A stretch of DNA of 32,937 nt from Frankia alni. GTDB taxonomy: Bacteria; Actinomycetota; Actinomycetes; Frankiales; Frankiaceae. Of the stretch, positions 13,601-32,937 are shown piece by piece (the first letter of the stretch is position 1; each line of letters opens with the position of its first letter). Where the stretch lies: assembly GCA_026225295.1 (NCBI GenBank), contig JAMFSN010000116.1, positions 1-32,937 of the forward strand, in the 5' to 3' direction. The notes under the pieces were generated by a model. The model did not search any database, was not told the origin of the DNA, and saw only the letters and a list, made by a program, of their open reading frames with translations. A program made the position numbers and the translations under genes.

Positions 13601-14110
13601 TCAGGCCATCTGGTTGGCGGCCTGGCTGACCTGGCGGTCGAGTTCCCGGGCGTCGACGTCGAGCTGGCGCTCGACCCGGCGGTCGGCCTTGAGCTCCGCC
13701 TTGCGCATGGTCGATTCGATCGTCGACTCGCCGACCACGACCAACGCCGCGTCGCCGGCGTCGATCGTCTCGCCCAACTCCTTGAGGTCCGAGCGGGACA
13801 TGCCCCGCCACACGTGGCCGGCCACCCCGCCCGCGACGCCGCCGACGGCGGCCGCGCCGAGGATCGCCGGCGGGAACAGCAGCCCGACCACGGCCCCGGC
13901 GGCGATCCCGCCCCAGGTGCCGTGGCGGGTGGCGGTTTCGCCCTTGTGCACGTGGACCTTGCCCTCGAGGTCCTTGCTGACCACCGCCGCGTCGTAGCTG
14001 CCGACCATCCCCCCGTCGTGCAGATCCTTGACCAGCGAATAGTCCGCCTCCGCGGCGGCGGGGCTGTCGTAGGCGCCGAGGAACAGGAAGACGCTGTCGG
14101 TCTGAGCCAT
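13601..14110 (-). CDS. DUF1269-type stress-associated protein
   Basis: A 169-residue protein of the DUF1269 / general-stress family. The ferredoxin-like N-terminal part (FLFLGAYDSPAAAEADYSLVKDLHDGG, then YDAAVVSKDLEGKVHVHKGE) is followed by a glycine-rich hydrophobic hairpin (GTWGGIAAGAVVGLLFPP onward, about 64-100) that probably inserts in or lies on the membrane, then DLKELGETIDAGDAALVVVGE and a charged helix. Members are often induced by stress in actinobacteria, but no biochemical role is established. A strong GGAGG lies before the ATG at 14110. It is downstream of the GH5 gene but separated from it by a hairpin. Confidence 0.8.
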   Translation of the reverse strand: MAQTDSVFLFLGAYDSPAAAEADYSLVKDLHDGGMVGSYDAAVVSKDLEGKVHVHKGETATRHGTWGGIAAGAVVGLLFPPAILGAAAVGGVAGGVAGHVWRGMSRSDLKELGETIDAGDAALVVVGESTIESTMRKAELKADRRVERQLDVDARELDRQVSQAANQMA

Positions 14111-14139
14111 GGGAGAACCTCCGGGGAGATCGGGACGCG

Positions 14140-14164
14140 CCGTGGGCCACCGGTGTGGCCACGG
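14140..14164 (-). terminator. Terminator-like hairpin after the GH5 gene
   Basis: CCGTGG-G-CCAC (14140-14150) pairs with GTGGCCACGG (14155-14164), one base bulged, around the tetraloop CGGT. It lies 53 bases past the GH5 stop, on the way to the DUF1269 start. No T-run follows. Confidence 0.5.
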
Positions 14165-14216
14165 TCAGCGTTCCCGCGCCGCCGCCGGCCACGTCCTCCC
14201 ATCCGGGTGACCCGCG

Positions 14217-15476
14217 CTACCCGGCCTGGGCGATCAGGTGGGCGCGCAGCCCGGCGCCCATCGCGGTCGGGGTTCCCTGGTAGTCGGAGACCAGCCCCGG
14301 GAAGCTGCAGTCGTAGGTGTTCCAGGCCCACGCGAGGTAGCTGTCGTGGTGGGCGTCGAGCCAGCCCATCACCTGGTTGATGTAGGTCGCCGCACAGTCG
14401 TTCTCACCGATCTCACCAGCGACGATGGGGACGGCCGCCGCGACCGGCCCGACCTGGCTGTCCAGGCACGAGGTCGTGTTGCAGCCGCTGAAGTTGTAGC
14501 TGTGGATCGAGGCGACCAGGTTGCCGGTCGGGTCGGTGGGCCGGTTGGCGAGCCAACCGGTCACGTCCCCGCCCCAGTTGAGCCCGCCGGCCAGCACGAC
14601 GTTCTTCGCGCCCGTCGCGCGGACCGCGTTGACCAGCGACTGCATGCCGGCGGTCGGGTAGCCGGTTCCACACTCCCCGCCGTCCCGCCAGCAGGTCCAG
14701 GTGATGTCGTGCGGCTCGTTGTAGAGGTCGAACAGCACCCCGGTGTCGCCGGCGTAGGCGGTGGCCACCGAGGTCCAGAAGGCGGGGGAGTGGTCGGCGT
14801 CGGCCATGTCCTGCTGGCCGGTCGCCTGCGCGGTGCCCGCCGCGTTCCAGTGCAGGTCGAGCACGACGGCCAGGCCGTGAGCCCGCAGCACCTTCACATA
14901 AGCGGCGATCGCCTGGCGGTACGTGGCGCCCGAATAGGCGGCCGGGGCGCCGTTGATCCCCAGCCAGCAGTCCTCGTTGAGGGGGACCCGGACGGTGTTG
15001 ATCTTCCAGGCGGCCATGGCCGTGACCGACGCGTCGTCGCTGGGTCCGTCGAAGATGCCCCAGTTCTGGATGCAGGCGTACTCGGTGCCGGCCCGGTCGA
15101 CGCCCAGCAGGCGGACCGCCCGCCCGGAGCCGTTCAGGATCGCGGTTCCCGACACGCGCAGTCCGCTCATGGCGCCCGTCGCCGGGGGCGCCGTGGTGGG
15201 CGCGGCCGGTGTCGTCGGGGCGCTGGTCGGGGTGACGGTCGGCTTCACGGTCGGCCCGGCGGTGGGTGACGCGGGCTGGGTGGTCGGCGCTTTCGTCGGG
15301 CTGGTCACCCCGGCCGAGGGGGAGACCGTGGCGGTGGAGCCGCCCGTCCCGCCACCGCCCCCACCGGGCAGGCCGGCCGGTCCGCAGCCGGCGATTACGG
15401 CGACGGCGACCGCCGCCAGCGCCGAGCCGCGGGCCGCCCGTTTCAGGGGTCGCCGGGTTCCGTGGTCCAGGATCAA
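14217..15476 (-). CDS. Secreted GH5-family glycoside hydrolase (endoglucanase-like lipoprotein)
   Basis: A 419-residue protein. A basic N-terminus (RRPLKRAARG), a hydrophobic stretch and lipobox VIAGC (Cys31) indicate a surface lipoprotein; a Pro/Thr linker runs to about 110. The catalytic part has SGLRVSGTAILNGSGRAVRLLGV, INTVRVPLNEDCW, VVLDLHWN, the acid/base Glu254 in FDLYNEP, SIHSYNF, and the nucleophile Glu355 in VAGEIGE, the full GH5 pattern. It likely cuts beta-1,4-glucans or mannans of plant material. The start is inferred as TTG at 15476 with GGAG 8 bases upstream; the frame stays open further but then runs antisense to the GNAT gene. It is monocistronic and divergent from that GNAT gene. 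Confidence 0.85.
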   Translation of the reverse strand: MILDHGTRRPLKRAARGSALAAVAVAVIAGCGPAGLPGGGGGGTGGSTATVSPSAGVTSPTKAPTTQPASPTAGPTVKPTVTPTSAPTTPAAPTTAPPATGAMSGLRVSGTAILNGSGRAVRLLGVDRAGTEYACIQNWGIFDGPSDDASVTAMAAWKINTVRVPLNEDCWLGINGAPAAYSGATYRQAIAAYVKVLRAHGLAVVLDLHWNAAGTAQATGQQDMADADHSPAFWTSVATAYAGDTGVLFDLYNEPHDITWTCWRDGGECGTGYPTAGMQSLVNAVRATGAKNVVLAGGLNWGGDVTGWLANRPTDPTGNLVASIHSYNFSGCNTTSCLDSQVGPVAAAVPIVAGEIGENDCAATYINQVMGWLDAHHDSYLAWAWNTYDCSFPGLVSDYQGTPTAMGAGLRAHLIAQAG

Positions 15477-15611
15477 AGCAAGCTCCGTCCGAATCGGGTC
15501 CCCCTCTCTCCAGAGACGTCGTTCGGGGCGGCCGGATCGTTGCCTGTTTCGGGGAATTTGCCCGTTAAGTGGGGGTGGGCCGGCTCGGCTCCGATGAGTT
15601 CCCACCGACCG

Positions 15612-15639
15612 GGTCCGGCCGGGCGAGGGTGGCCGGACC
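15612..15639. promoter_or_regulatory. Inverted repeat between divergent GH5 and GNAT genes
   Basis: GGTCCGGCC (15612-15620) and GGCCGGACC (15631-15639) are perfect complements with a 10-base spacer, centred midway in the 217-base divergent region. The position suits an operator for either gene or a transcript hairpin. Confidence 0.35.
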
Positions 15640-15693
15640 GTCGCCGCGGCCGGCCGGCCGAATAGCCGACGGCGGATCGGGAACGGGTCCGCT

Positions 15694-16407
15694 ATGACGC
15701 CGCCGCTGTCGTTCGCCGCGAAACCGACCCTGACCGGACAGCGGGTCATCCTGCGCGCGGTCACCGTCGACGATGCGACCGGGCTGGCCGGGTTGATTCG
15801 CGACCCGGAGGTCCGCCGGCTGACCGGTACCCACCTGGCGGTCGGGCCGGCGGCCATCGACGGCGCCCGCGAGTGGTACGGCTCGCGGGACGGGCAGCAC
15901 GACCGGCTGGACCTGGCCATCGTGGACCCCTCGACCGACCGGTACGTCGGCGAGGTGGTTCTTAAGGGTCTCGACGCCGACAACGGGTCCTGCGAATTCC
16001 GGATCGCGCTCGGCCCGGCGGCCGTCGGTCGCGGCTACGGCACAGACGCGACCCGGCTGATCCTGGCCCACGCCTTCGAGACGGTGGGCGTCCACCGGAT
16101 CGGCCTGGAGGTCTACGCGTTCAATCCGCGCGCCCGGCGGGTGTATGAGAAGGTCGGATTCGTCCGCGAAGGGACCCGGCGCGACGCGCTGCGGTGGGAC
16201 GGCGGCTGGGTGGACGCCGACATCATGGCCGTCCTGGCCGATGAGTGGGCCGGGCACCGGGGCCGGCCCGCGCTCGCCCCCGTCCCGGCCACCTGGCCAC
16301 CTGGCCACCTCGGCTATCTCCGGCCGGCTGGCCCGGCGGCACGCCCAACGGACCCTGATCCTGGCCGGCTTCGCCGTCAGCACAGTCGGGCCAGTCACTC
16401 GGCCTGA
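15694..16407 (+). CDS. RimJ/RimL-type GNAT acetyltransferase
   Basis: A 237-residue acetyltransferase. TLTGQRVILRAVTVDDATGLAGLI and DPEVRRLTG start the fold; YVGEVVLKGLDADNGSCEFRIAL is the central sheet; VGRGYGTDATRLILAHAFE holds the acetyl-CoA loop (GRGYGT); GLEVYAFNPRARRVYEKVGFVREGTRRDAL is the standard ending, all in the RimJ/RimL style that acetylates ribosomal protein N-termini or small amines. The final 55 residues (from about 180) are Pro/Arg-rich and lie outside the fold; they may be a non-conserved extension. Start is ATG at 15694. It converges with the MFS gene. Confidence 0.85.
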   Translation: MTPPLSFAAKPTLTGQRVILRAVTVDDATGLAGLIRDPEVRRLTGTHLAVGPAAIDGAREWYGSRDGQHDRLDLAIVDPSTDRYVGEVVLKGLDADNGSCEFRIALGPAAVGRGYGTDATRLILAHAFETVGVHRIGLEVYAFNPRARRVYEKVGFVREGTRRDALRWDGGWVDADIMAVLADEWAGHRGRPALAPVPATWPPGHLGYLRPAGPAARPTDPDPGRLRRQHSRASHSA

Positions 16408-16432
16408 CCGGCTTGACCCGGCCGGCCGTGCG

Positions 16433-18034
16433 TCAGATCCCGGCCAGATGCGCCGATTCCGCGACCGGGCCGCCCGTCAGTGCGGAGTCCGGATCGGGTG
16501 CGATCTGGGCCCGGCGCGGGATCATGGTCGCCGCGACCAGGGTGCCCAGCAGCACGGAGACCAGTCCGACCAGCGCCACGATGTGCATCCCGGCCACGAA
16601 TGCGTCGTTCGAGGCCCTGGTCAGGAACGCGCCGGGGGTGCCGCCGACCTGGTGGGCGAGGGTGGCCGCCCCCCCGATCTGGTCGTGGGCGGCCTGCCTG
16701 GCGTCGGCCGGCAGTCCGGCCACCGCCGGCTGGTTCAGGGCGGTGCCCATCCGTGAGTGGTAGGCGCCGGTCGCGAGCGACCCGAGGATGGCCACCCCGA
16801 ACGCACCGCCCAGGAACTGCACCGTGGAGCGCAGCCCGCTGCCCGAACCGGTCTGGTCGGGCGGCAGCGAGGACATGATCGCGTTCGACGCGGGCGCGAT
16901 GGTGAGGCCGATCCCGGCCCCGATGAAGGCGAACGACAGGCCGATCAGCAGGTAGCCGGAGCTCGCGGTGACCGGCAGGAGCAGCGCGACCCCGGTGGCC
17001 AGCAGGGTGAGTCCGGCGACCATGCTCACCCGCAGACCGAACCGGGCCGCCACCCGGGCCGAGATCGGGCCGGCGGCGGCCAGGCAGATGGCCAGCGGCG
17101 TGAACCGCACGCCGACGCCCAGCGCGTCGTTGCCCTGGACGAACTGCAGGTCCTGGGTCAGGACGTACATCACGCCGAACAGCGCGAAGAAGACCAGGGC
17201 GACCGCCCCGCTGCCGGCGCTGAAGACCGGGTTCCGGAAGAAACTCACGTCCACCAGCGGATCGGTGACCCGGCGCTCGACGGCGACAAACAGCGCCATC
17301 ATCACCACGCCTCCGACCAGCGGACCCAGCGCGAGGGGGTTGCCCCAGCCGCGGACCGGCGCCTCGATCACGCCGTAGACGAGCGCCGTGAGACCGACCG
17401 AGGACAGGAGCACGCCGAGCGTGTCGATCCGGCGCGGGGTGTCCGACCGGCTCTCCCGCATGACCAGCGGCGCGGCGATCAGGGCCAGGATGACCACCGG
17501 CACGTTGATCAGGAAGACCGAACCCCACCAGAAGTGCCGGAGCAGCACTCCGCCGACCAGCGGTCCCACCGCGAGACCGACCCCGCTCACGCCCGACCAG
17601 ACGCCGATCGCCCGGGCCCGCTCGCCCGGCTGGGTGAACGTGGAGGTGATCAGCGACAGGGTGGCGGGCATCAGGAACGCCGCCCCCAGGCCCATCACCG
17701 ACCGGGCCGCGATCAACGCCACGGACGACGTGACGAGTGCGCTGACCAGCGACGACACACCGAACACAGCCATGCCGAAGATGAAGGTGCGGAGCCGGCC
17801 GATCCGGTCGCCGACCGCTCCGCCGAGCAGGAGGAACACCGCGTTGGCCAGCGTGTAGCCGTCGGCGATCCACTGGAGGCCGCTGCTGCTGGGATGCAGG
17901 GCGGTCACCAGCGTCGGCAGGGCGACGTTGAGGACGGTGTTGTCCAAGCCTATGATCACGACCGCGACGCTCAGGACGGCCAGGGCCCACCAGCGACGCG
18001 GGTTGACGGCCGGCTCGGTCATCGGAAGGTCCAT
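16433..18034 (-). CDS. DHA2-type MFS drug-efflux transporter (EmrB/QacA family)
   Basis: A 533-residue transporter with about 14 membrane helices. LDNTVLNVALPTL (helix 1 motif of DHA2 proteins), the loop GDRIGRLRTFIFG (motif A), ARSVMGLGAAFLMPATLSLI and GVGLAVGPLVGGVLL (motif C, the antiporter signature) identify a proton-drug antiporter of the 14-helix EmrB/QacA group. I chose ATG at 18034, with GGGGAG 6 bases upstream, over a TTG one codon earlier. It is divergent from a TetR repressor, with two operator copies between them, so induction by an efflux substrate is very likely. The drug range is unknown. Confidence 0.92.
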   Translation of the reverse strand: MDLPMTEPAVNPRRWWALAVLSVAVVIIGLDNTVLNVALPTLVTALHPSSSGLQWIADGYTLANAVFLLLGGAVGDRIGRLRTFIFGMAVFGVSSLVSALVTSSVALIAARSVMGLGAAFLMPATLSLITSTFTQPGERARAIGVWSGVSGVGLAVGPLVGGVLLRHFWWGSVFLINVPVVILALIAAPLVMRESRSDTPRRIDTLGVLLSSVGLTALVYGVIEAPVRGWGNPLALGPLVGGVVMMALFVAVERRVTDPLVDVSFFRNPVFSAGSGAVALVFFALFGVMYVLTQDLQFVQGNDALGVGVRFTPLAICLAAAGPISARVAARFGLRVSMVAGLTLLATGVALLLPVTASSGYLLIGLSFAFIGAGIGLTIAPASNAIMSSLPPDQTGSGSGLRSTVQFLGGAFGVAILGSLATGAYHSRMGTALNQPAVAGLPADARQAAHDQIGGAATLAHQVGGTPGAFLTRASNDAFVAGMHIVALVGLVSVLLGTLVAATMIPRRAQIAPDPDSALTGGPVAESAHLAGI

Positions 18035-18118
18035 CAACGGCTCCCCTGGCGCGGCCGGAACGAGCGTTCGGCGATCGGTGCGGACCGCATCGCGTCGCCG
18101 TCGATCTTTGCGTCATCA

Positions 18119-18158
18119 AGATACGGGACAGTGTCTTACCAGATACGTTACCGTATCT
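18119..18158. promoter_or_regulatory. Tandem TetR operators between efflux pump and repressor
   Basis: Two 18-base sites share the pattern AGATAC-N6-GTRTCT: site 1 at 18119-18136 (right arm GTGTCT, one change from perfect) and site 2 at 18141-18158 (right arm GTATCT, perfect; arms extend to AGATACG / CGTATCT). Their centres are 22 bases apart, about two helical turns, so dimers would sit on the same DNA face. Site 2 ends 3 bases before the TetR ATG at 18162, predicting autoregulation as well as pump repression. Confidence 0.8.
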
Positions 18159-18161
18159 TTG

Positions 18162-18791
18162 ATGGCTCGCAGCATGTCGAACCGCACGCCCCCGGCGCCC
18201 GGGTCCACCCAGCGCCGGCACGGGGACGCGCTCGACGAGGCCATCCGCCAGGCGACGCTGCGGGTGCTGGCCAACACCGGCTACGCGCGCATGACCATGG
18301 ACGAGGTCGCGCACGAGGCCCGGACCAGCAAGCCGGTCCTCTACCGGCGGTGGCCGGGCAAGCGCGAGTTGGTCGTCGACACCATCGTCACGGTCACCGC
18401 CCGCAGCCTCGGCGATCCGCCCGACACGGGCACCATCCGCGGCGATCTGATCGGGCTGCTGCTCCAGCTCGGCGCGCTCCTGGCGACCCAGCCGTGGGAG
18501 CTGTCGATCCGGCTGATCGCCGAACTCAACGCGGAGCCGGAACTGCGCGACCGGCTGTGGGCCGACAGCTGGGGAAAACGCGGCCTGGTGGCCCGGATCC
18601 TGCTGGGCCGGGCGGTGGCCCGGGGCGAGGTCCGACCGGAGGCCACCGAGGACCTCTTCACCAACCTCGGATCGTCCTACCTGCTGGCCTGTTTCATCTT
18701 CGAAGGTCGGGCCCTGGCCCGACCCGAGATCGAGCAACTCGTCGACGAAATCTGGTTGCCGGCCCTGCGCCCGCGACCGCCCGCCGGGTGA
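18162..18791 (+). CDS. TetR-family repressor of the adjacent efflux pump
   Basis: A 209-residue TetR regulator. The N-terminal helix-turn-helix reads DEAIRQATLRVLANTGYARMTMDEVAHEARTSKPVLYRRWPGKRELV (about 23-70), followed by a helical ligand-binding and dimer domain with the TetR C-terminal pattern ELRDRLW, GEVRPEATEDLFTNLGSSYLL and EIEQLVDEIW. I start it at ATG 18162; ATG 18174 is an alternative that would lie further from the operator. It is divergent from the MFS gene and its start sits against the second operator. It probably binds an efflux substrate and is released from DNA. Confidence 0.9.
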   Translation: MARSMSNRTPPAPGSTQRRHGDALDEAIRQATLRVLANTGYARMTMDEVAHEARTSKPVLYRRWPGKRELVVDTIVTVTARSLGDPPDTGTIRGDLIGLLLQLGALLATQPWELSIRLIAELNAEPELRDRLWADSWGKRGLVARILLGRAVARGEVRPEATEDLFTNLGSSYLLACFIFEGRALARPEIEQLVDEIWLPALRPRPPAG

Positions 18792-25642: not shown

Positions 25643-26869
25643 ATGACACCCGCGGTGAAACCGACCGACACCCACGACGTGGCGGTCACCGGTGTACCAG
25701 CCCGAGCGGCACGACCCGGCTCCGTCCGGGCCGTCGATGCCGCCAGCTCCGGCCGGGCGGACGATTCCCCGCCCGCGGTCGCGGACGCGGAGCCGACCGC
25801 CGACCTCCTGGTGGCCGAGCTCGGTGAGCCCGGCCCCCCGGGGGCGCCCGGTGACGATCCGGAGGCGGTCGAGGACGCGGACGCGCTCGACCCCGCCGAC
25901 GAGGACGTCGAGCCGGCCCCCGTGGCCGGCCGCCGGGCCAAGGGCGACGAGCCCGCGCCCATGTCCGACCCGGTCCGGATGTACCTCAAGGCGATCGGCA
26001 AGGTTTCGCTGCTGACCGCCGAGGGCGAGGTCGATCTCGCCCGCCGGATCGAGGCCGGGGTCTTCGCCGCCCACAAGCTGGCCACCGAGGGCGCGAAGAT
26101 GACGGCCCGGCAGCGGACCGATCTCAAGGCCGTCGAGCGGGACGGCGAGATCGCGCAGCGCGGGCTGGTCGAGGCCAACCTGCGGCTCGTGGTCTCGATC
26201 GCCAAGCGGCACGTGGGTCGGGGGATGCCGTTCCTGGACATCATCCAGGAGGGCAACCTGGGGTTGATCCGGGCGGTCGAGAAGTTCGACTACGCCAAGG
26301 GCTACAAGTTCTCGACCTACGCGACGTGGTGGATCCGGCAGGCGATCTCCCGGGCCCTGGCTGACCAGGCCCGCACGATCCGGATTCCGGTCCACCTGGT
26401 CGAGGTGATCAACCGGCTGGTCCGCGTGCAGCGGCAGCTGGTCGCCGACCTGGGCCGGGAGCCCACGCCGGAGGAGATCGCGGTCCAGATGGACCTCAGC
26501 CCGGAACGGGTCGGGGAGATCCTCAAGATCTCGCGGGACCCGGTGTCGCTGGACACCCCGATCGGCGAGGACACGGGGGCCCGGTTCGGCGACCTGATCG
26601 AGGATTCGGACGCGGTCATTCCCCTCGAGGCGGCCACTGTCGTGCTGCTCCAGGAGCAGCTCGACGCGGTGCTGTGCACGTTGTCCGCCCGGGAGCGTCA
26701 TGTCGTGCGGCTGCGCTACGGCCTGGCCGACGGCCGGCCGCGCACGCTCGAGGAGGTCGGCCGGGAGTTCGGGGTCACCCGTGAACGCATCCGCCAGATC
26801 GAGTCGAAGACCCTCGCGAAACTGCGTCACCCGGCCCGCTCGGAGAAGCTGCGCGACTACCTGGAATAG
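25643..26869 (+). CDS. RNA polymerase sigma factor, sigma-70 family group 1/2 (HrdB/SigA-like)
   Basis: A 408-residue sigma factor. The first 106 residues are acidic and Pro/Ala-rich, with little predicted structure. From 107, [32 protein letters not shown] is region 1.2; [19 protein letters not shown] and [20 protein letters not shown] are regions 2.2-2.4; regions 3.0/3.1 follow ([20 protein letters not shown]); region 4 ends [21 protein letters not shown]. The -10- and -35-reading residues are as in primary factors, so it recognises housekeeping-like promoters. Against HrdB it has changes such as [28 protein letters not shown], and could be a HrdB paralog instead of the only primary factor. 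The ribosome site lies 13 bases before ATG, longer than usual; ATG at 25961 would give a factor without the acidic leader. Confidence 0.9.
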
Positions 26870-26880
26870 CCGGGTCGGTC

Positions 26881-26920
26881 GGCGGCCGATCCCGGTTCTC
26901 GACGGGACCGGGCGGCCGCC
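26881..26920 (+). terminator. Two-step hairpin terminator after the sigma factor
   Basis: CCCGGTTC (26891-26898) pairs with GGACCGGG (26905-26912), one G-T pair, around TCGACG; outside, GGCGGCC (26881-26887) pairs with GGCCGCC (26914-26920). The structure begins 12 bases past the stop codon. No T-run follows, as is usual here. Confidence 0.6.
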
Positions 26921-27039
26921 GCGTTCCCGGGCTGGGACGCCTCCGGCGGCAGTACGGTCCCGTTTGGCCTTCTTGCGGCCTGGACACTAGCCTTCTGGGG
27001 GCCCGCGAAGGTCGGTGGGCCGGAGGGATTGGGCGACAG

Positions 27040-28932
27040 GTGGCGCGGGATCATCCGGACCGGGCGGGTCCGCGGCCGACCTGGCCGCCGTCCGTCGGCG
27101 CCGGCCCGCCGATCAGCCCGGTGCTCGCCGCCCGCTGGTTCCAGGCCCTCTACGAGACGCCCCTGTTGTTCTCCGGGATCCTGGACCGCGCCGGCCGCGT
27201 CCTGGACGCGAACTACCTGTCCATCGAGGGGTGCGGGCTCGACCGCGACGCGGTGCTGGGCCGCCCGTTCTGGGAGGGCGGCTGGTGGTCGCCCGACCCG
27301 GTGCTCAGCGATCAGGTCCGCCGGTGGTGCGAACGGGCGCTGCTGACCGGTCAGCCGTTCCGGACCCGCGGCCGGTACTTCCTCGGGGACGGCACGCCCC
27401 GGATGGTCGACCTCGCCCTGTCGCCGGTGTGGGAGGACGATGGCGGCGTCACCCACCTGATCGCGACCGGCTCCGACGTGACCGACACGGTGGCCGCGCA
27501 GCAGGAGCGCGAGGACCGGATGGTCGTCGAGGCCGACGAACTGCGCGGGATGGCCGAGGACCGCCGACGCGAGCTGCTGATCGTGCAGGAAGCCGAACGG
27601 CTGGCCGACACCCGCCTGCAACGGCTGGTGGGCGTGGCGCTCGACCTGGTCGGGGTCGAGACCGTGGAGGACCTGACCGACATCATCGTCAACCGCGGGC
27701 TGCCGGTGCTGGGTGCGGACGGGGGCGCCGTCCGGTTCATCGATGCCGACGGCGTGATGCAACTGGCGGCCAGCCGCGGGCTGAAAGACGACGTCCAGGT
27801 CACCTTCGGGGCTGTGACCGGCGACAGCCCGATGCCCACCGGCCATGTGGCCCGGACCGGCCAGCGACTGGTCCTGCCGACCCGCGCGGCGGGCCTGGAG
27901 TTCACCCCCTTGATGGCGGGGGTGTACGAGGCCACCGACCGGGGCGCCTGGGTCTTCGAACCGCTCAAGCTAGGGAGCCGCGTGCTGGGCTGTCTCGCGG
28001 TGTCCTGGGTGCGGGAGCGGGAGTTCAGCCCGGACGAACTCGGCCTGATCGAGGCGTTCGCCGCCCAGTGCGCCCAGGTACTCGAGCGGGTCCGGATCAC
28101 CCAGGCCCAGCGGGTCACGGCCGCGCAGATCCAACGGCTAGCGGTGGCCCTGCAGCGCAGCCTGCTGACCACGCCACCGACCCCGGTCGCCCTCGACATC
28201 GCGGTCCGCTACCTGCCGGCCGCGCAGGAGGCCCAGATCGGCGGTGACTGGTACGACGGGTTCGACACCACCGAGGGCACGACGCTGATCTCGGTCGGCG
28301 ACGTCAGCGGGCACGACGGGGATGCCGCCGCCGGGATGGCTCAGCTGCGCAACCTGCTGCGGGGGCTGGCCGTCCACGGCAGCGACGGTCCGGCCGTGCT
28401 GCTGACCCGGCTCGACCAGGCGATCGAACGGCTCGGGCTGGACACGTTGGCGACCGCCCTGCTGGCCCGGGTCGAGATCGCCCCCGACGACCGCCCGGCC
28501 GGGGACAGCCGATCCGGGGCCCGGCGGTTGCGGTGGTCGAGCGCGGGGCACCTGCCGCCCCTGCTGCGGCTACCCGACGGTGAGGTCCGGGTCCTGGCCC
28601 ACGACGCGGACCTGCTGCTCGGGCTGGACAGTCGGACCCCGCGGGCCGAGCACGTCACTGACCTGCCGGCCGGCTGCACCCTCCTGCTCTACACCGACGG
28701 GCTGGTCGAACGGCGCGGCGAGCACATCGACGACGGCGTGCGCCGGTTGGCCCGGGCCCTCGGGTCGGCCCGATCGGCGAGCTCCGACGAGGTGTGCGAC
28801 CACCTGTTGGCCGCGATGCTCACCGACGCCCCCGAGGACGACGTCGCGCTGCTCGTCCTGCGCCTCCGGGAGATGGGCCCCCGGGCGACCCCGGCCCCGG
28901 GGCCGGGAAATCCCGGGATGCCGATCAGCTGA
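27040..28932 (+). CDS. PAS-GAF-SpoIIE (PP2C-type) serine/threonine phosphatase
   Basis: A 630-residue signalling phosphatase. A PAS domain (about 30-150, FSGILDRAGRVLDANYLSIEGCGLDRDAVLG and SPVWEDDGGVTHLIATGSDVTD) is followed by a short charged helix (about 150-190), a GAF domain (about 195-355), and the SpoIIE/PP2C domain (about 385-605) with GGDWYDGF, VGDVSGHDGDAAAGMAQLRNLL, SSAGHLPPLL, LLLYTDGLVERRGE and PEDDVALLVLR. Metal-binding Asp residues in GGDWYD, GDVSGHD, YTDG and EDD are all present, so it should be an active Mn/Mg phosphatase that removes phosphate from an anti-anti-sigma protein. GTG at 27040 has GGAGGG 12 bases upstream. It is 60 bases upstream of the TIR-STAND gene, same strand. 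Confidence 0.88.
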   Translation: MARDHPDRAGPRPTWPPSVGAGPPISPVLAARWFQALYETPLLFSGILDRAGRVLDANYLSIEGCGLDRDAVLGRPFWEGGWWSPDPVLSDQVRRWCERALLTGQPFRTRGRYFLGDGTPRMVDLALSPVWEDDGGVTHLIATGSDVTDTVAAQQEREDRMVVEADELRGMAEDRRRELLIVQEAERLADTRLQRLVGVALDLVGVETVEDLTDIIVNRGLPVLGADGGAVRFIDADGVMQLAASRGLKDDVQVTFGAVTGDSPMPTGHVARTGQRLVLPTRAAGLEFTPLMAGVYEATDRGAWVFEPLKLGSRVLGCLAVSWVREREFSPDELGLIEAFAAQCAQVLERVRITQAQRVTAAQIQRLAVALQRSLLTTPPTPVALDIAVRYLPAAQEAQIGGDWYDGFDTTEGTTLISVGDVSGHDGDAAAGMAQLRNLLRGLAVHGSDGPAVLLTRLDQAIERLGLDTLATALLARVEIAPDDRPAGDSRSGARRLRWSSAGHLPPLLRLPDGEVRVLAHDADLLLGLDSRTPRAEHVTDLPAGCTLLLYTDGLVERRGEHIDDGVRRLARALGSARSASSDEVCDHLLAAMLTDAPEDDVALLVLRLREMGPRATPAPGPGNPGMPIS

Positions 28933-28992: not shown

Positions 28993-31900
28993 GTGGCCCG
29001 GATCTTCGTCAGCCACGCCACCGCCGACCTGTCGATCGCGGTGGGGGTGCGCGACTGGCTGCAGGACGACCGCCACCAGGTGTTCCTCGATCGCGACCTG
29101 CGGGAGGGGGTCCAGGCCGGCGAGGTCTGGAAACGGCGCCTCTACCGCGAACTGCGGCGCGCCGACGCCGTGGTCTGCATTGTCACCGGCGCCTACACCC
29201 GTTCGGAATGGTGCTGCGCGGAGGTCGGGATCGCCGACGCGGTCGGCAGCCGTCTCATACCGTTGCGGGCCGAGCCGGGGGCCGCCTCCAAGCTGCTGGA
29301 GGACCGCCAGTACGTCGAGTGGGGCGCGAACGGCGCCTGGCGGGACCAGATCGCCGCGAGCCTGCGCGGCATCGACGCGGCCGGCGGTCTGGGCTGGGAC
29401 GATGCCGCGCCGCCGTTTCCCGGCCTGCGCCCGTTCGAGGTCGGCATGGCCCGGGTCTTCCGGGGCCGGGCCGACGAGACCCGGCGGTTGGCCGGCCGCC
29501 TGCGGACCCTCGGCGAATCGGCCGATGCCGGGCTGCTGCTGGTCGTCGGACCGTCCGGCTGCGGGAAGTCCTCCCTCGTGCGGGCCGGGCTGGTCGCCCG
29601 GATGGCCGGGGAGCCCGGCTGGGACGTCGCCTATCCGTTCCCGCCCGGGGTCGAGCCGACCGGCGCCCTGGCCCGGGCGCTGACCGTGACCGCCAACCGG
29701 GCCAACCAGGCCGACCAGGGCGCGACGGTCGAACAGACCCGGGCCCGGCTGGCCCGTCCCGACGGGTTGAGTCGGGTGGCCGAGGAGTTACTGGTGGCCG
29801 GCCCCGGGCCGGCCCGCGACCGCCTGCTCATCGTGCTCGATCAGGGTGAGGAACTTCTGACCCGGTCGAACGAGACCGACCGGGCCCGGTTCGCGGCCCT
29901 GCTGCGGGTCGCGCTGCGCGGCCCGGTCCGGGTCGTGGTGACGCTGCGGTCGGAATTCGTCGACGCGTTCGTCGCGCTGCCGGAGCTCGCCGACCTGACC
30001 GTCGAGACGTTCCCGCTCCGGCCGCTCGGACACGACATGCTGCGGATCGTCATCGAGGAGCCGGCCCGGCTGGCCGGCCTCACGACCGACCGGGAGCTGG
30101 TCGAGCAGATGGTCGCCGACACCGACCGGGGTGAGGCATTACCGCTGCTCGCCTTCACCCTGCAGGAGCTGACCGAGGGGTTGTCGCGGGGCGCGGCGCT
30201 CTCGGCGGCCCGTTACCAGCAGATCGGTGGGGTACGCGGCGCGCTCGCCCGGCGGGCCGGCGCCGCCCTCGCCGACGCGGTGGCCGCGAGCGGCCTGTCC
30301 GCCGACCGGATCCTGGTCTACCTGAGCCGGCTGGTGGCCACCGTCGACGAGACCGGTCAGCCCACCGGTCGGCGGTTGGAGACCGACGGCCTGGATCCGG
30401 GACTCGCCACGGCCGTCGCCATCTTCGTGAATGAGCGGCTGCTGATCAGCGCCCGCGACGAGGAGCAGGGCGGAACGGTCGGCGTGGCCCACGAGGCGTT
30501 GTTCACGGCCTGGCGGCCGCTGCGGGACACGATCGAGCAGCGGGCCGACGCGCTCCGGATGGGCCGGTCGCTCGACCAGGCCGCCGGGGAATGGGATCAG
30601 GCCGGCCGGCCCGCCGACCACCTGTGGGACCGCAGCCGGGCCATCGAAGCCGGGCGGGTCCTGCGGGCCGACGACCTCGAGGTCGTTCCGGCCGACTTCC
30701 TGGCCGCCGGCCGGCAGCGGGGCGACCGGCGGCGGATCCGGGCGATCGGGGTCCTGTCGGCGTTCCTGGCCGTCATCACGCTCGGTGGCCTCGGGGCGGC
30801 CGGTCAGTGGCGGTCGGCGGCCGCCCAGCGGGGGGTGGCCCGCTCGGAGCGGCAGTTGGCGGTCAGCCGGCAACTGGTCGGCGAGGCCCTGGCCCTGCGG
30901 GACAGCCAGCCCCGCACCGCGCTGACCCTGGCCGTCGAGGCCTACGACCTGGCCCCCTGGCTCGAGGAGGCGCGGGGCAGCCTGCTCGGCATCCAGGCCA
31001 CCTACTACGGCGCGACGATGCTGGCCGGTCGGGGGGCCGTGCACGCGGTCGCCTACCGGCCGGACGGGCAGCTGGCCGCGACCGCCCAGCACGACCGCGC
31101 GGTGTGCCTGTGGACCACGCCCGTCCGCCGGCTGGTCACCTGCCTGCCGACCGCGGCGGCCGCCTACGGGGTGGCGTTCAGTCCGGACGGCGCGACGCTG
31201 GCCGCCGCCGGGGCGGACGGAACGGTCACCCTGTGGCGGGCCGCCGACCGGCGTCGGCTGGCGGTCGTCCGGGTCGGGACCGCGCCGGTGAACGCCCTGG
31301 CCTTCAGCCCCGACGGCCGGACGTTCGCCACGGCCGGCGAGGACGGCGCCGCGACGCTGTGGAGCGCCACCGACCGCCGCCGGGTCGGCACCGTCGTCGC
31401 CGGGTCGGGGCCGCTGGTAGCGCTCGCGTTCAGTCCCGACGGGTCGGAGTTGGCCGCGGCTGACAGCTCGGGGGTGCGGGTGTGGCCCACGGCCGCGGTC
31501 GGGGCGCCCGGGGGCCCGCCGCCCGGGGTCGAGATCTTCGAGGGTTTCGCCCGGGCGGTCGCGTTCAGCCCGGACGGCCGCCGGCTGGCCGTCGGCGGGG
31601 CCAGCGGCGGCGTCACGATCCTCGACGCCCGCAGCCACGCCCAGCTGGCCACCGTCACCGAGCACACCGGTCGGGTGACCGCCCTGGCCTGGAGCCCGGA
31701 CAGCCGGTCGCTGGCCAGTGGCGGCGTGGACGCGAGCGTCCGGTTGTGGGATGCCGGCTCCCGGATCGAGCCGCTGGTCCAGATGTCCGCGCTGACCGGC
31801 CCGACGCTGTCGGTGCTCGGCCTCGCGTTCAGTCCGGACGGGCGCACCCTGCTGAGCGCCGACGGGGACGGCGTGCTGGGCAGCTGGAACGTCGGCGACC

Positions 31901-32937
31901 ATCCGGACGACGGGCTGCCCGAGGTGCGGGGGGCCGCGGTGTTCAGCGCCGGCGGAATCCTGGCCACGGCCGGGCGGGACCACCAGCCGGTCCTGTGGCG
32001 CATCCCGGGACGCCCGTCGGCGGCCCCATCCTCGGCGCCCGGACCGTCGGCGCCCGAGTTCGCGGCCCGGCTCTCCGGGCTGCCGCGCCCGGCCGGGCCG
32101 CCCCCCGCCGCGCCTTTCGGGATGGCCTTCAACGCCGCCGGCACGATGCTCGCCGCGCCGGCCACCGACAACCGGGCGGCCGTCTGGTCGCTGACCGATC
32201 CGACCCGACCCCGGAGGCTGCGGGGCGCCCGGTCGCGGCCGGTGCGGGCCGTGGCGTTCCAGGGGGACCTGGTCGCGGCGGCCAGTGACCGGCCGACCGG
32301 GGACGTCGACCTGTGGAACCCGGCTCCGGCGACGGTGACCGCCCACCTGGCGCCGATCCATTTCGGCGCGGCCGTGAACGCGGTGGCGGTCACCGGCCGG
32401 CCGGGCGCCCCGAGCGTCATCACCGGCGGCGACGAGGGTCTGATCGCCTCGTCCGACCGGTCGGGGCGACCGGCCCAGGTCTTCTACGCGGACCGGGTGG
32501 TCGCCGCGGTCGAGGCGATGACCGTAAACCACGCCGGCACGATGTTGGTGACCGGCAGCGACGACGGCACCGTCCAGCTCTGGGACGTAGCCACCCGCAA
32601 GCCGCTCGCCGCGTTGGCCGTCGGCGGCCGGCCGGTCGTCGCGGTGTCCCTGAGCGCCGATGACCGGCTGCTCGCCGCGGCCGACACCGATGGAGTGATC
32701 AGCATCTGGAACGTCGGGGACCATTCGTTGTTCGCCGCGCCGCTCGCCCGGCCGGGCACCACCGCGGTCGCCTTCGCCCCCTCGGGTCGGACGTTCGCGA
32801 CGTCCGACCAGGCCGGGACGCCGGTGTTGTGGGACACCGACCCCGGCCGGGTCCGGGCCCGGCTGTGCGGCACCGGCCAGCGGCCCCGGCTGACCGCCGC
32901 GGAGTGGGCGGCCCGGGTCCCGGACCAGCCGTTCCAC
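28993..32937 (+). CDS. TIR - nSTAND1 NTPase - transmembrane - WD40 repeat protein (STAND immune-sensor architecture), 3' end cut by the window
   Basis: At least 1315 residues, no stop to the window edge. Residues 1-110 are a TIR domain: ARIFVSHATADLS, then DRDLREG, DAVVCIVTGAYTRS and SEWCCAEVG, where Glu77 is the candidate NADase glutamate. FPGLRPFEV (142-150) starts an nSTAND1-type NTPase: Walker A GPSGCGKSS (186-194, Lys192), Walker B LLIVLDQGEELL (Asp283), sensor-like Arg319 in VVVTLRSEF. A winged helix region follows (LPLLAFTLQELTE), then one membrane helix (about 584-605), then WD40 repeats from about 678, many with FSPDGR and a closing LW or VW. The last visible residues LTAAEWAARVPDQPF resemble the usual C-terminal motif, so only a few codons are missing. 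GTG at 28993 has GGAG four bases upstream; GTG 28990 is an alternative. In STAND proteins WD40 repeats are thought to sense a trigger and the NTPase to oligomerise; TIR would then deplete NAD+ and stop growth. Confidence 0.88.
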   Translation, partial: MARIFVSHATADLSIAVGVRDWLQDDRHQVFLDRDLREGVQAGEVWKRRLYRELRRADAVVCIVTGAYTRSEWCCAEVGIADAVGSRLIPLRAEPGAASKLLEDRQYVEWGANGAWRDQIAASLRGIDAAGGLGWDDAAPPFPGLRPFEVGMARVFRGRADETRRLAGRLRTLGESADAGLLLVVGPSGCGKSSLVRAGLVARMAGEPGWDVAYPFPPGVEPTGALARALTVTANRANQADQGATVEQTRARLARPDGLSRVAEELLVAGPGPARDRLLIVLDQGEELLTRSNETDRARFAALLRVALRGPVRVVVTLRSEFVDAFVALPELADLTVETFPLRPLGHDMLRIVIEEPARLAGLTTDRELVEQMVADTDRGEALPLLAFTLQELTEGLSRGAALSAARYQQIGGVRGALARRAGAALADAVAASGLSADRILVYLSRLVATVDETGQPTGRRLETDGLDPGLATAVAIFVNERLLISARDEEQGGTVGVAHEALFTAWRPLRDTIEQRADALRMGRSLDQAAGEWDQAGRPADHLWDRSRAIEAGRVLRADDLEVVPADFLAAGRQRGDRRRIRAIGVLSAFLAVITLGGLGAAGQWRSAAAQRGVARSERQLAVSRQLVGEALALRDSQPRTALTLAVEAYDLAPWLEEARGSLLGIQATYYGATMLAGRGAVHAVAYRPDGQLAATAQHDRAVCLWTTPVRRLVTCLPTAAAAYGVAFSPDGATLAAAGADGTVTLWRAADRRRLAVVRVGTAPVNALAFSPDGRTFATAGEDGAATLWSATDRRRVGTVVAGSGPLVALAFSPDGSELAAADSSGVRVWPTAAVGAPGGPPPGVEIFEGFARAVAFSPDGRRLAVGGASGGVTILDARSHAQLATVTEHTGRVTALAWSPDSRSLASGGVDASVRLWDAGSRIEPLVQMSALTGPTLSVLGLAFSPDGRTLLSADGDGVLGSWNVGDHPDDGLPEVRGAAVFSAGGILATAGRDHQPVLWRIPGRPSAAPSSAPGPSAPEFAARLSGLPRPAGPPPAAPFGMAFNAAGTMLAAPATDNRAAVWSLTDPTRPRRLRGARSRPVRAVAFQGDLVAAASDRPTGDVDLWNPAPATVTAHLAPIHFGAAVNAVAVTGRPGAPSVITGGDEGLIASSDRSGRPAQVFYADRVVAAVEAMTVNHAGTMLVTGSDDGTVQLWDVATRKPLAALAVGGRPVVAVSLSADDRLLAAADTDGVISIWNVGDHSLFAAPLARPGTTAVAFAPSGRTFATSDQAGTPVLWDTDPGRVRARLCGTGQRPRLTAAEWAARVPDQPFH

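Follow-up and report, generated by a model that had tools for sequence, protein, structure and literature searches.

A Frankia TIR-nSTAND1-WD40 protein with a predicted outward-facing sensor and a linked exported solute-binding protein

The last gene of a 32,937-nucleotide stretch of Frankia alni DNA (contig JAMFSN010000116.1, positions 1-32937 of a 133,889-base contig; hereafter the window) encodes a single chain in which a TIR domain, an nSTAND1 NTPase, one predicted transmembrane (TM) helix and a WD40 array follow one another. By sequence comparison across related genomes, we found that genes of this kind are linked at ten loci to a gene for an exported solute-binding protein (SBP), that the SBP and the WD40 part share a phylogeny, and that the cytosolic effector half has been exchanged. 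We consider it reasonably likely that the two genes encode a two-protein transmembrane STAND receptor, in which an SBP-assisted ectodomain would control a cytosolic TIR NADase.

Domains and predicted topology

The TIR-nSTAND1-TM-WD40 gene is a single unbroken open reading frame (ORF) on the + strand, cut by the window edge just 24 nt before its end at 32961; looked up on the contig, the stop codon is a TGA at 32959-32961. Translation could start at GTG 28969, the first in frame, from which the ORF counts 1330 codons, or at GTG 28993, which we prefer because homologs begin MAR[VI]F[IV]S. Residue numbers of Pfam domains and of the TM segment are counted from GTG 28969, those of the TIR motif (Glu77) and the Walker motifs from GTG 28993.

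An earlier note on this DNA, made from the letters alone, had described a TIR domain with Glu77 in the motif SEWCCAE, a STAND NTPase with intact Walker A and B motifs, and one membrane helix and a WD40 array in the same frame, all of which our searches bear out. Pfam places TIR_2 at residues 12-126 (63.5 bits against a cut-off of 28) and nSTAND1 at residues 149-549 (280.8 bits against a cut-off of 27.1), and recognises the WD40 repeats with an E-value of 1.1e-59. When the cytosolic parts of 13 homologs are aligned, S71, W73, C74 and E77 of the TIR domain do not vary, and neither do the motifs Walker A (G186..KSS194) and Walker B (D283QxEE287); that the catalytic motifs of the TIR and STAND parts look intact is supported at the level of sequence. 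The sole strong hydrophobic segment spans residues 590-613, with a mean Kyte-Doolittle value of 2.08 over 19 residues. The same domain order recurs in a paralog within this genome and in orthologs from related genomes, so the combination is not a product of chance.

A PDB sequence search with the window TIR alone returned no match, whereas a profile built from the alignment of the 13 homologs matched the AbTIR NAD+ hydrolase chains 7uxr, 7uwg and 8g83. AlphaFold2 (AF2) was used to model the two halves of the protein. The TIR-nSTAND1 model (pLDDT 80.7, pTM 0.62) retrieved the plant TIR-NLR RPP1 as the top Foldseek target, with Apaf-1, Avs4 and EfAvs5 also matched. In the model of the post-membrane part (pLDDT 77.1, pTM 0.65), a short bundle of helices leads into WD40 propeller blades, and its top Foldseek targets were WD40 propellers, both highly repetitive ones and the two-propeller proteins Apaf-1 and AIP1. 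Because both models are of moderate quality and their TM-scores to the targets are low at full length, they support the folds and not the domain arrangement.

Topology was surveyed across 48 nSTAND1 ORFs, 44 of which carry a strong helix between the NTPase and the WD40 array. Arg and Lys are commoner on the N side of this helix in all 44 (mean 6.3 vs 2.8), and 41 of the 44 carry a terminal Cys pair, its members separated by ~15-32 residues; of the three ORFs without it, two are truncated by contig ends. The two complete ORFs with neither a strong helix nor the charge bias, L245 and L248, have no Cys pair; L247, slightly below the hydropathy cut-off, has both the charge bias and the Cys pair. 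On the grounds of this bias and of the Cys pair, we predict that the TIR-NTPase part lies inside and the WD40 array outside, with a terminal disulfide. The earlier note had proposed a membrane tether that would let the protein sense injury at the envelope, and this idea survives in part: a membrane protein plausibly reads the envelope, but the helix appears to be more than a tether, with the WD40 array predicted outside and an exported SBP as its probable partner.

Linkage to and co-inheritance with the solute-binding protein

The downstream gene starts within the stop codon of the STAND gene (..CCCGTGACG..), with its GTG at contig 32958 and a GTGA overlap, and its product is a 436-residue lipoprotein of the SBP_bac_1 family (E 3.8e-39) with the lipobox LAAC. 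Among solved structures, this lipoprotein comes nearest to MalE3 (6dtq, E 1e-50) and a trehalose/maltose-binding protein (1eu8, E 3e-47). W283 and G325-G326-W327 are invariant in the aligned SBP set, and since we take these positions to correspond to the sugar-pocket residues of 1eu8, the pocket probably works. Lipobox or Tat-like export signals are present on the linked SBPs. There is no permease gene after the window SBP, which is followed by a small opposite-strand ORF and a major facilitator superfamily (MFS) transporter, nor within the loci of the ten STAND-linked SBPs. Plasmid records held no close relative of the SBP, the best match reaching 33% identity.

Across 35 Frankiaceae genomes, six SBP matches stand at 46-56% identity and the remainder at 34% or below. 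All six lie directly downstream of a TIR-nSTAND1-TM-WD40 gene on the same strand (the window, Frankia sp. CIT1 (L072), Parafrankia colletiae (L079), Pseudofrankia sp. BMG5.36 (L105), Frankia sp. R82 (L106) and Frankia sp. AiPa1 (L107)), with a 4-nt gene overlap in four of the six pairs. Two less similar SBPs of the family that were inspected (L108, L110) sit in ordinary ATP-binding cassette (ABC) operons, and the nearest SBPs outside the family (39-48% identity) are accompanied by two permeases and often by a sugar hydrolase. Four further pairs were found in Streptosporangiales: convergent in L137 (Actinomadura rubrisoli) and L228, and with the SBP upstream across a 3-6 nt gap in L235 and L236. 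Altogether, 10/10 permease-less SBPs of the clade with enough flank adjoin an nSTAND1-TM-WD40 gene, whereas none of the ABC-operon members do; L119/L231, L151 and L200, cut by contig ends, and the distant L181 and L185 were not judged. As the pairs occur in three gene orders (SBP after, convergent or before), the adjacency has outlived rearrangement. The linked form is patchy, occurring in 6/35 Frankiaceae and 4/347 Streptosporangiales genomes.

The ten linked SBPs form one clade (support 95/83; 96% of bootstrap trees), and so do the ten partner post-TM parts (100/99). Subgroups common to both trees unite L235 with L236, L137 with L228, the window with L072, and L079, L105, L106 and L107 with one another. 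The nSTAND1 parts of the ten are scattered in their tree: within the limits of approximately unbiased (AU) tests, whose p-values presuppose the model and groups named beforehand, monophyly is rejected both for the whole set (p 2e-35) and for the six with a TIR domain (p 4e-5), as is a grouping of the window post-TM part with the proteins of Frankia genus g5 that are sisters of the window NTPase part (p 4e-95). The nSTAND1 part of the window protein is sister to SBP-less g5 proteins, that of L072 pairs with another CIT1 paralog, and those of the non-TIR proteins fall in the other half of the tree. Since the SBP and post-TM trees agree while the nSTAND1 parts scatter, the effector appears to have been swapped near the TM helix; the plain reading of these sequences is that the WD40 ectodomain and the SBP are inherited as a unit, and that the cytosolic half is exchanged at a joint near the membrane helix.

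The N-terminal effector of the SBP-linked STANDs varies: in Frankiaceae it is a TIR domain, and at least two further kinds of N-terminus, neither with a Pfam assignment, occur in the other pairs. In the proteins encoded at L137:1788-6077 and L228:9532-13680 the N-terminus resembles, by eye, a class III nucleotide cyclase, a lead that Pfam did not confirm, giving no match. We rejected an exported neighbour as a general feature of nSTAND1-TM-WD40 genes: besides the SBP loci, a lipoprotein gene lies next door only at L074:10864-11466, L078:5663-6382 and L247:5869-6588. These are small lipoprotein genes of unknown family, with a 15-nt gap to or an overlap with the nSTAND1-TM-WD40 gene, and are perhaps further exported partners.

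Proposed mechanism and competing explanations

In the two-protein receptor that we favour, a membrane-anchored, exported SBP of maltose/trehalose type, freed from its ABC transporter, would bind a ligand outside the cell, probably a sugar resembling an alpha-glucoside or else a self or foreign envelope glycan, and would dock onto the WD40 propellers on that side of the membrane. From there the signal would pass through the single helix, the cytosolic nSTAND1 NTPase would switch to an oligomer, and the oligomer would cluster TIR domains, leading to NAD+ cleavage; the outcome could be growth arrest or death if sustained, and a nucleotide signal if mild. More tentatively, and stopping just short of calling it probable, we posit a transmembrane bacterial NLR, in which an extracellular double WD40 propeller and an exported SBP co-receptor sense an outside ligand and fire a cytosolic TIR (or swapped) effector via the STAND oligomer. 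It would share the logic, not the descent, of Toll-like receptors with ligand-presenting co-receptors, and would be one case of a wider nSTAND1-TM-WD40 class with exported partners. If the pair works as proposed, a WD40 ectodomain and a borrowed nutrient-binding protein would sense the outside for membrane receptors of actinobacteria, and the response would come from an exchangeable effector in the cytosol, in this case a TIR NADase. This would account for the frequent membrane helix and C-terminal Cys pair in nSTAND1-WD40 proteins, and experiments would have a definite class of ligands to start from, a clear-cut test of topology and a cassette of two genes.

Several points weigh against the receptor reading. 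The proposed contact between SBP and WD40 array draws on linkage and co-phylogeny, with AF2 models that are moderate and treat the halves separately, and the TIR domain might act as a scaffold or signal maker instead of depleting NAD+. The hydropathy and positive-inside arguments are predictions, and common ancestry could account for the Cys pair. The architecture does not need an SBP, since most nSTAND1-TM-WD40 paralogs lack one next door, and because the SBP clade has one origin, ten loci do not amount to ten independent events.

A classical cytosolic antiphage STAND, Avs- or NLR-like, would bind a phage protein with a cytosolic WD40 array, use the helix as an anchor and have the SBP gene as a bystander. 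Defence roles are known for TIR-STAND chains and Avs proteins, the Foldseek matches tie the NTPase to RPP1, Apaf-1, Avs4 and EfAvs5, and the genome holds many TIR and nSTAND1 genes; we nevertheless regard this alternative as improbable, given the charge bias and terminal Cys pair, the strict SBP linkage and the co-phylogeny of the SBP with the post-TM part alone. Nor did the defence system suggested by the earlier note find backing at the locus, where no known defence genes were seen around the window gene, its neighbours being a sigma factor, a PAS-GAF-SpoIIE phosphatase and an MFS transporter, and we rejected a defence-island reading of the window. PADLOC gave weak ThsB-TIR matches (best E 4e-6), P-loop fragments and, over the WD40 part, a HEAT-ARM model, without recognising the protein as Avs or as a cytosolic antiphage STAND. 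Still less likely, at the very low end of our expectations, is an SBP that works with an orphan ABC transporter whose genes lie elsewhere, its place behind STAND genes being due to hitch-hiking. SBPs of shared ABC systems may indeed be encoded apart from their permeases, but the linkage across two orders and three gene orders, the translational overlap and the subclades matching those of the WD40 part all speak against it.

The biological purpose of such a receptor could point either way. Its patchy SBP-linked form and its effector swapping lean towards a role in conflict, its sugar-type SBP and the mostly fixed locus of the g5 orthologs towards physiology. In a purely physiological sensor of sugar or envelope state, outside immunity, SBP, WD40 array and STAND would report an alpha-glucoside, and a nucleotide signal made by the TIR domain would tune growth or development. 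The SBP belongs to the maltose/trehalose-binding family, its non-linked relatives accompany permeases and sugar hydrolases, the GlnH-GlnX-PknG pathway offers a metabolic precedent (PMC9769921), and SBP-less orthologs occur in all sampled g5 genomes. The patchiness of the linked form and its swapped effectors resemble conflict systems, and on balance we hold this explanation to be rather unlikely. The earlier note had named housekeeping-type conservation in relatives as a finding that would tell against its defence reading, and such conservation is seen in part: the TIR-nSTAND1 half is present in 6/6 sampled g5 genomes, mostly at one syntenic locus, while the SBP-linked form is patchy. The g5 orthologs (L064-L069) are shorter chains of ~1000 aa without an SBP, in most cases at a locus beside a GNAT acetyltransferase gene.

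Among known systems, a characterised precedent is that of Actinobacteria in which the periplasmic binding protein GlnH informs the transmembrane GlnX and, through it, the cytosolic kinase PknG (PMC9769921, PMC6069109). Here too an SBP would inform a transmembrane protein controlling a cytosolic enzyme; GlnH-GlnX-PknG differs in its Ser/Thr kinase output and in lacking STAND, TIR and a WD40 ectodomain. The nSTAND1 clade was named by Kaur et al. 2021, and nSTAND1 proteins with varied effectors are known (PMC8195603). Like them, the window protein places an nSTAND1 domain, its Walker motifs intact, between an effector at the N-terminus and repeats at the C-terminus. Unlike those described there, it has a membrane helix ahead of its sensor, which is predicted to face outwards and comes with a dedicated exported SBP. 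RPP1, Apaf-1 and Avs proteins likewise join a TIR domain (RPP1) or a WD40 double propeller (Apaf-1) to a STAND ATPase, with matching predicted folds, but their sensors are cytosolic and need no SBP, and the window protein has a helix between NTPase and propellers. To our knowledge, characterised bacterial STAND defence proteins sense intracellular ligands. The maltose/trehalose SBPs (MalE3 6dtq, TMBP 1eu8, LpqY) are of the same family as the window SBP, which differs in its linkage to a STAND gene and its lack of permeases. Thoeris ThsB and other TIR defence NADases share a TIR_2-type domain with the W-C-x-x-E motif; no ThsA-like partner gene lies near the window TIR gene, flanked as it is by the SpoIIE phosphatase and SBP genes. 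An SBP-linked or outward-facing nSTAND1-WD40 receptor is not described in the accessible text of PMC7159879, PMC8195603 and PMC10907252 or in the STAND and TIR-WD40 literature searched, which is weak evidence as subscription papers mostly fell outside that search.

Coordinates and neighbouring genes

Table 1 Features of the TIR-nSTAND1-TM-WD40 gene and its SBP partner.
Feature	Position	Strand	Basis or remark
TIR-nSTAND1-TM-WD40 gene	28993..32937, continuing to 32961	+	GTG 28993 (28969 possible), homolog starts
TIR_2 domain	29002..29349	+	Pfam E 3.4e-17; match at same positions in whole-genome scan
Codon of predicted catalytic Glu77 (SEWCCAE)	29221..29223	+	Invariant, 13 homologs
nSTAND1 NTPase domain	29413..30615	+	Pfam E 3.4e-83
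Walker A GPSGCGKSS	29548..29574	+	Sequence; core residues invariant
Walker B LIVLDQGEELL	29827..29859	+	Sequence; D283, Q284, E286, E287 invariant
Single predicted TM helix, Arg-rich N side (inside)	30736..30807	+	Hydropathy, charge
WD40 array, modelled propeller blades, predicted extracytoplasmic	31015..32835	+	Pfam WD40, AF2, Foldseek
First Cys codon (Cys1300) of conserved C-terminal Cys pair	32866..32868	+	Partner Cys1328 beyond window end
SBP_bac_1 lipoprotein gene, 436 aa	Contig 32958-34271, wholly outside window	+	Overlaps STAND stop by GTGA

Directly upstream of the TIR gene, window positions 25643-28932 hold a sigma-70 factor gene (regions 1.2-4) followed by the PAS-GAF-SpoIIE phosphatase gene, and the two may possibly form a sigma regulator pair. 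Elsewhere in the same genome, which contains 14 TIR_2 and 11 nSTAND1 matches, a TIR-nSTAND1-TM-WD40 paralog and the gene of a 1598-aa TIR-containing protein converge on a single contig (L070:9645-13601 and 13798-18594). At L258, L259 and L261, nSTAND1-TM-WD40 genes adjoin apparent Ser/Thr protein kinase genes, as judged from the start of the sequence. At L083:8892-14160, 16 nt separate a TIR-nSTAND1-WD40 gene from the gene after it, which encodes a patatin-like phospholipase (DGGGVRG motif, recognised by eye), likely a second effector.

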